This document shows, piece after piece, positions 14,664-54,500 of a stretch of DNA of 64,000 bases. Source of the stretch: Clostridia bacterium (GTDB taxonomy: Bacteria; Bacillota; Clostridia; Christensenellales; Borkfalkiaceae); assembly GCA_017396365.1 (NCBI GenBank), contig JAFQMD010000005.1:1-64000 (forward strand), given 5' to 3'. The notes below the pieces were generated by a model, which saw only the letters and a list, made by a program, of their open reading frames with translations, was not told where the DNA came from and ran no database searches. The position numbers were made by a program, and so were the translations under genes. Each line of letters starts with the position of its first letter. Within the stretch, counting starts at the first letter, position 1.

Positions 14664-14945
14664 ATAACTTAAAATTAACGCATTGAAAAGAAGAGTAAGT
14701 AAATGGATTTGCACAGAGAAGCCCCGTTTGGTGAAAGGGGAAGAATGAAATTTTCTGAACATGGTCTTGGAGCGGTGTCCCCGATATTTAAGGGATGACG
14801 GGTTTCGCCCGATATAGCGATAGGGTATTAAAAGGTTTTCTTGCGTACCTAATAAGGTCTTTATTGTGAAATAGAGATAAAGTAAGGTGGTAACACGGTG
14901 TCAAATCGTCCTTATGGGTTTATACTCATAAGGATTTTTATTTTG
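14664..14945 (+). promoter_or_regulatory. T-box riboswitch (methionine specifier) with terminator
   Basis: Elements appear in canonical order: AGTAAGTA in the lower stem I, the GGTGAAAG distal loop, the specifier region GAACATGGTCTTGGAG, the T-box AAGGTGGTAACACGG at 14884-14898, and a terminator pairing 14909-14916 with 14927-14934 before a U-rich run. The specifier codon reads ATG, so uncharged tRNA-Met is expected to allow read-through. This fits the downstream methionine transporter. Confidence 0.93.
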
Positions 14946-51193: not shown

Positions 51194-51273
51194 CTAAATG
51201 GTATAAATTTAGCAAATAAAACCGCCGTAAGTTATAAATGTTCTTTGGCTTTCTATATGAATATAGAAAACTC

Positions 51274-51302
51274 TTGACGAAAACAACCCAAAATGCTAAA
51301 AT
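51274..51302 (+). promoter_or_regulatory. Promoter of the structured RNA
   Basis: TTGACG (51274-51279), 17 bases, TAAAAT (51297-51302); predicted start at about 51308-51309, exactly at the base of the closing stem. Confidence 0.7.
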
Positions 51303-51307
51303 AACAA

Positions 51308-51483
51308 TGCGACTCAAAATTTTATACTCCCAAGCAAAAGTACTCTTATAGCATAAGTGTACCTTTTTGCATTACATAAAATCTTTTGCATGGGATTGTT
51401 TTGTTAAATTTTGGTGTCGCAACTAAGCGATAAAGGCACTTATCACGTGTCGTTTGTCGTTTTGCCAAACGACACTTTTTTAC
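51308..51483 (+). ncRNA. Structured RNA, 6S-like rod or leader of the LRR gene
   Basis: The 5' end (51308-51324, TGCGACTCAAAATTTTA) pairs with 51405-51421 (TAAATTTTGGTGTCGCA); inside, TCCCA-A-GCAAAAG (51328-51340) pairs with CTTTTGC-A-TGGGA (51383-51395); the apex holds a hairpin 51341-51361 (TACTCTTAT-AGC-ATAAGTGTA). A terminator, GTGTCGTTTG / CAAACGACAC then TTTTTT, ends it near 51481. A long rod closed by its own ends with an internal bulge resembles 6S RNA in shape, but I cannot confirm the family. It might instead be an attenuating leader, as the next gene starts 28 bases on. Confidence 0.55.
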
Positions 51484-51510
51484 TTAAAAACCCACTTCAA
51501 GGAGAAATTT

Positions 51511-54500
51511 ATGAAAACTTGTCCAAAATGCGGAACACAAACTGACGGTCGCTATTGCCCAAAATGTGGATGCGATACGGATAAAATTAAAAACCCAACT
51601 TCTTGTCCTAAATGTCGCGAGAAATTAAAAGGACGTTTTTGTCAAAATTGTGGTTACGACACACGAAAAAGTAAACCTTTGCCTATGTTTTTGGCAAAAA
51701 CAATAGATTTTATCAAAAAGAAGAAAATGCCAATTATTGTAACATCTTCATTATCTGTTCTTGTTATAGTTAGCACAATTTTAATAATTTCTTTTTTTAC
51801 AAACATCTATACAGTACGCAAGCTTAAAGAGATTGAATTGGGAATGACGAAAGAACAAGTCATAGACATTCTTGGAACTCCTAGCGACGTGTCAGATTCA
51901 GATAACATTTTTTATTATTTTGAAAAGAAGGTCGAAAAAAAGTATAACAACATCGAAAAATATTTGATTGACGACTGGAACAAATTAGAAGAAGAATATG
52001 CCGAACTTGAAAAGATGGTATACAAATATATACGAATTGAATTCGGACTAAACGGTGTATCTGAAATCTTTTTAGACTTGTCTCATAGGTATTCTGAAGA
52101 TGACGATTATAAAACGAATAATATTAAGAAATTAAAAAAGTTAGAACTTAACACTCCTACTCTTGAAGTCTTCAAAGTTCAAACAGACAACGGCTACGAC
52201 TATTGCCTTGTTGACAATTTAACTTCAATTGAATATAGCTCCGTTTTTTTAGATGGTAGTTATTTTAAAGGCTACGCCAATTTAGAACCTTTAGACTGCA
52301 ACGATTTTCAAACTTCTCTATTTTGGGAAAATCCCATTTTCAAATTTACATACTCTACACCTATTTTCATTTGTGGGCAAATTGATTCTAACGGAGAACT
52401 TCTTTCTTACGTCGGCAACAAGACGTTCCTTGAACTTGCAAACGTAGTTTCAATTGCTGAAAATGCTTTTAACCAAAACGAATCCTTAGAATTTGTTTCT
52501 TTAAACGGAGTAAATAACATCTCTGCAGGAGCTTTTAATAATTGCGATAATTTAAAAGCGGTTTTCTTCCCTATCGACATCCAAGTTCCTATAGGCGCAT
52601 CTCCATTTGTTGATTGTGATAATTTAGTAGGCATTTTAACAACTTCATTTACCGCTCCCACGAATTGGTCTTTTGCAGAAGTTTTTACCATTGACGATTG
52701 GTCTATAAATAAAGATGGGGGCTATCACGTATGGAATAAATGGGAAAAATCTTTTACTACCCATTCAAGAAATTGCAAAATTTGTAATGAGACAATTTCT
52801 GGGGAACACGAATTAGACAACTATTATTGTTTTTCTTGTGGGGACTTGTCTTGCTATGACTTAGAATTCGTTTTAAACAAAAACAAAGACGGCTATATTG
52901 TGCAAAGTAAAGGGACATGCACCGATCCATACGTAATAATTCCATCCGTTGTCAACAACTTGCCTGTTGTTGCCATTGAAAGCAACGCCTTTCACAATTG
53001 CTTAGATTTAACAACAATAGTAATTCCAAGTAGCATTGTCTCTATTGGCTCTTCTGCCTTTTCATATTGTAGAAATTTATCTTCTGTTCATATCACGGAT
53101 ATAAGTTCTTGGTGTAATATTTCTTTTGTTAACTATTATTCAAATCCATTATCATATGCAGGAAATTTATATTTAAACAACGAACTTGTATCAGAACTTG
53201 TAATACCCGATGGTGTTAAAAAAATTGAAGCGTACGCATTTGATGGCTGTACAAGTTTGACTAGTGTAACCGTTCCCGATAGCATAACTTCTATTGGTGA
53301 TTATGCTTTTAATAATTGCAATAATTTAACAGCAGTAAACATAACGGATATAAGTTCTTGGTGTAATATTTCTTTTGGTAACTATTATTCAAACCCTTTG
53401 GCGAAGGCTTGCAACCTATATTTAAACAACAAACTTGTATCAGAACTCGTAATACCCGATGGTGTTAAACAAATTACAGCGCATGCATTTAATGGCTGTA
53501 CAAGTTTGACTAGTGTAACCGTTCCCGATAGCGTAACTCATATTGGTTATGACGCTTTTGATAATTGCAATAATTTAACAGCAGTAAACATAACGGAAAT
53601 AAGTTCTTGGTGTAATATTTCTTTTTCCTCAAACCCATTAACATGTGCAGGAAATTTATATTTAAACAACGAACTTGTATCAGAACTTGTAATACCCGAT
53701 GGTGTTAAAAAAATTGAAGCGCACGCATTTAAAGGCTGTACAAGTTTGACTAGTGTAACCGTTCCCGATAGCATAACTTCTATTGGTGATTATGCTTTTA
53801 ATAATTGCAATAATTTAACAGCAGTAAACATAACGGATATAAGTTCTTGGTGTAATATTTATTTTGATTACATTGATTCAAACCCATTATCATATGCAGG
53901 AAATTTATATTTAAACAACGAACTTGTATCAGAACTTGTAATACCCGATGGTGTCAAACAAATTACAGCGCGTGCATTTAATGGCTGTACAAGTTTGACT
54001 ATTGTAACCGTTCCCGATAGCGTAACTTATATTGGTTATGACGCTTTTGATGATTGCGATAATTTAAAGGAATTAACCTTACCATTCGTAGGAACAAGTT
54101 CATCTAACAACCTACGCTCTATTTTTGGTTCAACGTTACCTTCCTCTTTAAAAAAGGTCTCTATCACAGGCGGAACATCTATTACAACTAACAGTTTTAA
54201 AGATTGTTCAAATCTAACAAGCATATCTATCCCCAATAGTGTAAACTCTATCGATAGATCTGCCTTTAGCGACTGTAGTAGCTTAGTAGAAATTACGCTA
54301 CCTTTTCTCGGTGTTCAAAGAGATGCAACATATACATATTTCGGTAGTATTTTTGGAGCATACGACTATAAAGACAATGGCAGTTTTGTTCCATCAACTC
54401 TAAAAAAGGTGACTATTACAGGCGGATCTAAAATAGGATCTAATTCCTTTATAGATTGTAGCAATCTGACAGACGTCGTCATACAAGGAAATATACTTTC

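Follow-up and report, generated by a model that had tools for sequence, protein, structure and literature searches.

What does a structured RNA do that lies, with a promoter and a terminator of its own, immediately ahead of a surface-protein gene in a Clostridia genome? A sequence-only reading of this locus, which lies in a window of 64,000 nt (the whole stretch of DNA analysed), had offered two interpretations, a rod recalling 6S RNA and a leader with a conditional terminator. The leader interpretation gained strong support from a conserved antiterminator and anti-antiterminator and from the lipoprotein or surface-protein gene that usually comes next. We hold, with a probability of about 0.82, that the element is a cis-acting, riboswitch-like transcription-attenuation leader of a class outside Rfam, in which a sensor controls a five-segment platform. 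This switching part, the main content of the element, was absent from the sequence-only reading.

Layout of the element and comparison with Rfam

As that reading had proposed, both a promoter and a terminator are predicted around the RNA (Table 1). The promoter is of a sigma-70-like, TG-extended type, and a comparable TTGnnn..TG..TAnAAT box lies close upstream of most homologs printed. The predicted 5' end, at about 51308, does coincide with the base of the closing stem, P1. A length of 17 bases had been given for this stem; its partner strand indeed lies about 100 nt downstream, but the helix comprises 15 bp and one bulged U. The inner stem (P2) and the apical hairpin (P3) were both recovered upon folding, and together with P1 and a conserved 3' bulge they make up the putative sensor domain. 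With a minimum free energy of -48.7 kcal/mol, compared to -31.0 ± 3.5 kcal/mol for dinucleotide shuffles (z -5.0), the RNA was more stable than any of 200 shuffled sequences. Its predicted end at 51483 leaves the 28 nt to the ATG that had been noted before, and the downstream gene encodes a protein with N-terminal zinc-ribbon-type CxxC motifs, a single hydrophobic stretch and many BspA-type LRR_5 repeats. The host genome carries a single copy of the RNA.

Table 1. Predicted features of the element and the downstream gene, in window coordinates
Feature	Position	Strand	Details and basis
Predicted promoter	51274-51302	+	-35 TTGACG 51274-51279, 17-nt spacer, TG-extended -10 TAAAAT 51297-51302; consensus scan
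P1 5' strand	51308-51322	+	Fold; covariation columns 1-15 and helix 1
P2 5' strand AAGCAAAA	51332-51339	+	Partner 51384-51391; 8/9 P2 pairs double-changed (14 sequences)
P3 apical hairpin GUAC...GUAC	51340-51362	+	3' strand is part of switch segment 2
Conserved 3' bulge CUUUUUGCAUUACAUAAAAUC	51363-51383	+	Conserved columns in alignments A1-A5; duplex test
P2 3' strand TTTTGCAT	51384-51391	+	Fold and covariation; position read from the sequence right after the bulge
P1 3' strand	51406-51421	+	Bulged U 51415; fold and covariation
J and linker (segment 3)	51422-51446	+	Strand directly 3' of P1; holds antiterminator strand 51425-51439
Q pairing	51427-51430 and 51432-51443 with 51353-51359 and 51362-51370	+	Duplex tests
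Terminator 5' arm and loop (segment 4)	51447-51462	+	Alternative partner 51425-51439; fold of transcript ending at 51465
Intrinsic terminator GUGUCGUUUG-loop-CAAACGACAC and U run	51447-51481	+	Hairpin 51447-51475; fold and scan
Ribosome-binding site AAGGAG	51499-51504	+	Sequence
Downstream gene, 1228 aa	51511-55197	+	BspA-type LRR_5 repeats, BamE-like domain; Pfam and sequence

The suggested search for a known Rfam model returned none: no family in Rfam 15 reached its cut-off over the element, either in the window or at 40 homolog loci, and permissive thresholds yielded chance-level matches only. The proposed likeness to 6S RNA did not hold up either, as RF00013 was absent among the matches with E ≤ 10 for 51200-51520. 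The sole 6S match of the genome lies elsewhere (C6:24608-24811, 45.6 bits, E 3.7e-8), 0.8 bits below the 46.4-bit cut-off. While the RNA shares with 6S RNA a rod shape, a long closing stem and an internal bulge, its conserved bulge, its conditional terminator and its linkage to a gene set it apart. A T-box was likewise rejected, with no RF00230 match at the site; the only one in the window is a T-box leader at 14674-14916 (+; 102 bits), which is also the only other Rfam cis-regulator there. No description of the RNA was found in the papers searched, a scope that left out supplements and preprints. The RNA is thus undescribed by Rfam and by the papers searched.

Conservation, covariation and spread

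A DNA search of 60 relatives revealed clear homologs at the level of genus, family and order, and homologs shared the layout of promoter, RNA, terminator and, usually, ribosome-binding site and gene. Alignments A1-A3 and a covariance model, R1, were built from 13 homologs and the window (14 sequences); MAFFT alone misaligned P2, and the pieces were trimmed so that the helices aligned before model building. R1 contains P1 (15 bp), P2 (9 bp) and P3 (8 bp) and covers the sensor plus about 15 nt of the J strand as sequence only, with the terminator outside the model. A second covariance model was based on 67 copies.

The covariation that had been named as a check on the structure is present in both sets. 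Among the 14 sequences, 91.3% of the pair cells were kept and 70 were double-changed, a result reached in 0/500 shuffles; among the 67 sequences, 92.9% of the cells were paired, 440 were double-changed and 29/32 pairs carried double changes (again 0/500), with the reservation that full sequences were aligned to the model, so that these final counts lean towards it. Slid controls were added for this reason, and slid partners retained at most 55% of pair cells in the 14-sequence set. P3 is (near-)invariant and 96% paired among the 14 sequences, with some double changes among the 67. Strong conservation is confined to the P1 ends, P3 and the bulge, P1 and P2 otherwise being long helices of variable sequence. 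Covariation in both sets therefore places a conserved, aptamer-like domain upstream of the platform.

In genome samples that were "drawn evenly" and are not full counts, and with model E-values that are rough, R1 matched 84/251 genomes of the family, with a maximum of 7 copies in one genome; for the order and the class the figures were 31/396 and 8/391. The second model matched 55/391 genomes of the class, and in a phylum sample of 398 genomes the window's own genome was its only match. The contigs named in an exact-pattern search were metagenome-assembled genomes of Clostridia, from ruminant gut samples where titles name the source.

Tandem copies, about 190-315 nt apart, were observed at L118 (1186-1313 and 1501-1622) and on G859:C80, G627:C5, G875:C11, G958:C33, G102:C95 and G014:C161. 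The two L118 copies are alike in their terminator and nearly identical in the sequence downstream, and no ORF preceded by a Shine-Dalgarno (SD) sequence follows. At L112, a Gut-1 RNA (Rfam, 58.7 bits; 1196-1272, +) lies about 230 nt upstream of the RNA copy without overlapping it.

A phage or plasmid origin was considered and rejected, with no exact-pattern match in viral contigs and no match in plasmids. Two uncultured "phage" records do carry the RNA, one beside chromosomal-type genes and the other near an integrase. In one uncultured human-gut "phage" record (L133; 70-1422 and 3098-4770), the RNA, which is possibly a mobile-element copy, lies downstream of an integrase, and a zinc-ribbon membrane protein and a lipoprotein are encoded there as well. 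In two human-gut records, the RNA stands ahead of a lipoprotein and a zinc-ribbon membrane protein.

Mutually exclusive pairings of the J strand

The J strand can engage two partners, the terminator 5' arm and loop (antiterminator) or the 3' strand of P3 together with the 5' part of the bulge (state Q). In the copies that R1 had recovered, both pairings were evaluated as duplex energies of native versus swapped partners with 5000 permutations, as energies lacking such swaps were not trusted. Between J and the terminator 5' arm/loop, native partners gave a mean of -12.5 kcal/mol, compared to -8.3 ± 0.3 kcal/mol for swapped ones (0/5000). The signal persisted in 14 non-redundant copies (z -6.5), was abolished by reversing either strand, and recurred at class level, where 24 copies gave -11.5 compared to -7.4 ± 0.5 kcal/mol. 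The Q duplex of J and linker, about 16 bp, gave -16.4 versus -14.3 ± 0.3 kcal/mol (0/5000), and -16.6 versus -11.5 ± 0.7 kcal/mol in the 24 class-level copies (0/5000). Tested singly, the halves of Q showed a weaker excess (z about -3.5), and one of the reversed controls deviated (z -2.7).

When transcripts were folded at the stage just preceding synthesis of the terminator 3' arm, 88/88 analysable copies had 6 or more J bases paired, and 87/88 formed an antiterminator of at least 8 bp. Its median length was 15 bp and its mean energy -15.7 kcal/mol, compared to -7.1 kcal/mol for shuffled sequences and -15.9 kcal/mol for the terminator. In the window, 51425-51439 paired with 51447-51462, and the antiterminator-forced fold, at -47.0 kcal/mol, came within 1.7 kcal/mol of the terminator fold (-48.7 kcal/mol). 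The pairings of J with the terminator arm and with P3/bulge exclude each other and covary, and the antiterminator is conserved in 87/88 copies. An intrinsic terminator lies between the RNA and the start codon except at L063 and L100. At L063 (minus-strand match 1501-1626) the terminator hairpin is lost; at L100 (minus-strand match 1501-1613) the J/linker itself seems to fold into a hairpin that a short U run follows, an arrangement in which the switch would have the opposite sign.

These pairings suggest a relay of five segments: the P3 5' strand (1), the P3 3' strand plus bulge (2), J/linker (3), the terminator 5' arm and loop (4) and the terminator 3' arm (5). With 1:2 and 3:4 formed, RNA polymerase would read on into the surface-protein gene; formation of 2:3, that is Q, would free segment 4 for the 4:5 terminator and stop transcription. 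As the antiterminator can form before segment 5 exists, the leader may let transcription continue by default, with Q acting as the brake. The pseudoknot that Q makes across P1 and P2 would require the rod to bend at the P1-P2 internal loop or to open partly. Comparative sequence data establish the structure of the sensor, the complementarity of 3:4, of 4:5 and of 2:3, and the position before the gene; competition of the pairings in vivo, a decision by a bound signal and the gene as target are what we infer from them. The two exclusive folds, one terminating and one continuing transcription, thus probably constitute a gene switch.

Target genes, signal and alternative explanations

Among the first downstream genes of the order-level set, 41/62 encode predicted lipoproteins, as judged by a simple lipobox and hydrophobicity rule, compared to 8/91 other genes at the same loci (Fisher p 6e-14, a value that overstates independence because the loci are related). 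The 62 genes come mostly from the own order, with five from other families of the class; a signal or membrane segment was seen in 6 products, and zinc ribbons at the N terminus, as in the window's protein, in 7. Start codons lie mostly 50-75 nt past the match end. Next to class-level and more distant copies, the gene often encodes a small protein rather than a lipoprotein, and these small proteins gave no clear Pfam or PHROG match. Three recurrent families of them follow L105, L111, L117, L120, L121, L129 and L130, with MNIK.ELLK.YI.DFI, IDITGI.L.PGN and, in the L111/L120 family, KKLYF/KRLYF as signatures. By script, 8 or 9 of the 24 class-level matches had no SD-preceded ORF within 450 nt, including one near a contig end and another with a visible ORF that the SD rule missed. 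L110, L112, L118 and L125, which have no evident gene, share a short motif resembling UUGUCGCCAAAC, of which L110 has a variant, some 70-150 nt past the terminator.

A chance fold of AT-rich intergenic DNA is practically negligible as an explanation: no point in its support was found, and the folding z score of -5.0, the homologs in many genera and, already on its own, the massive covariation speak against it. That the RNA is instead a stand-alone small RNA, 6S-like or otherwise trans-acting, with a constitutive terminator and an incidental gene 28 nt on, would suit its own predicted promoter, its strong terminator and the distant copies without an evident downstream gene. We nevertheless consider this improbable, given the lack of a 6S match here and the location of the genome's best one elsewhere, the fixed distance to the start codon and the strong lipoprotein enrichment; moreover, a constitutive terminator leaves the antiterminator in 87/88 copies unexplained. 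Equally doubtful is that J contacts an intact terminator hairpin loop in a kissing interaction that promotes termination. While the pairing core does fall inside an 8-9-nt loop in several copies (L003 and the window among them), the pairing reaches into the terminator 5' arm, and the linker pairs with the arm base to give a full hairpin of terminator-like stability.

More serious, if still on the unlikely side, is a leader with a conditional terminator that responds to a protein or to a base-pairing RNA (tRNA or sRNA), with the rod as a protein-binding site. The long, variable P1 and P2 helices and the restriction of strong conservation to the P1 ends, P3 and bulge are in line with such a signal, as are the 41/62 lipoproteins, and a global regulator would fit the presence of as many as 7 copies in a genome, ahead of diverse surface genes. 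Yet inspection of downstream flanks brought up no linked regulator gene, the conserved bulge and loop resemble an aptamer core, and tandem copies, which are typical of ligand-sensing leaders, are present. For the riboswitch-like leader that we favour, the signal is most likely a small molecule, with a protein or an RNA as further possibilities; the downstream genes suggest no ligand.

Like terminating riboswitches and orphan candidates, the element is a 5' leader with a conserved sensor, exclusive antiterminator and terminator, and tandem copies. It differs from them in having no Rfam match, in the competition of the terminator 5' arm and P3/bulge for one strand, and in standing mostly ahead of lipoprotein genes in its own order. 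The c-di-GMP riboswitches of Clostridia control surface-protein genes and offer a lead, although cmscan gave no c-di-GMP model match and the secondary structure is another. With trp-type attenuators and T-box leaders the element shares a chain of alternative pairings that ends in an antiterminator or a terminator; unlike in trp-type attenuators, no conserved leader ORF was seen. A weak riboswitch candidate with a terminator pseudoknot (PMC11109978) differs in structure and genes, and its text mentions neither lipoproteins nor surface proteins. The element would work like a riboswitch or an attenuator, and its membership among riboswitches awaits a ligand. We give even odds to the fuller proposal of a new riboswitch class across a class of gut Clostridia, in which a small signal sets lipoprotein and LRR surface-protein output via the five-segment relay, with sensor hairpin and terminator arm competing for one strand.

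The switching parts are defined finely enough for tests with mutants and compensatory mutants. If the reading is true, it would enlarge the set of orphan riboswitch-like classes by a widespread one, with up to 7 copies per genome, that is tied to surface proteins in uncultured Clostridia of the ruminant and human gut, and it would provide a direct handle on the signal by which gut Clostridia change their surface.
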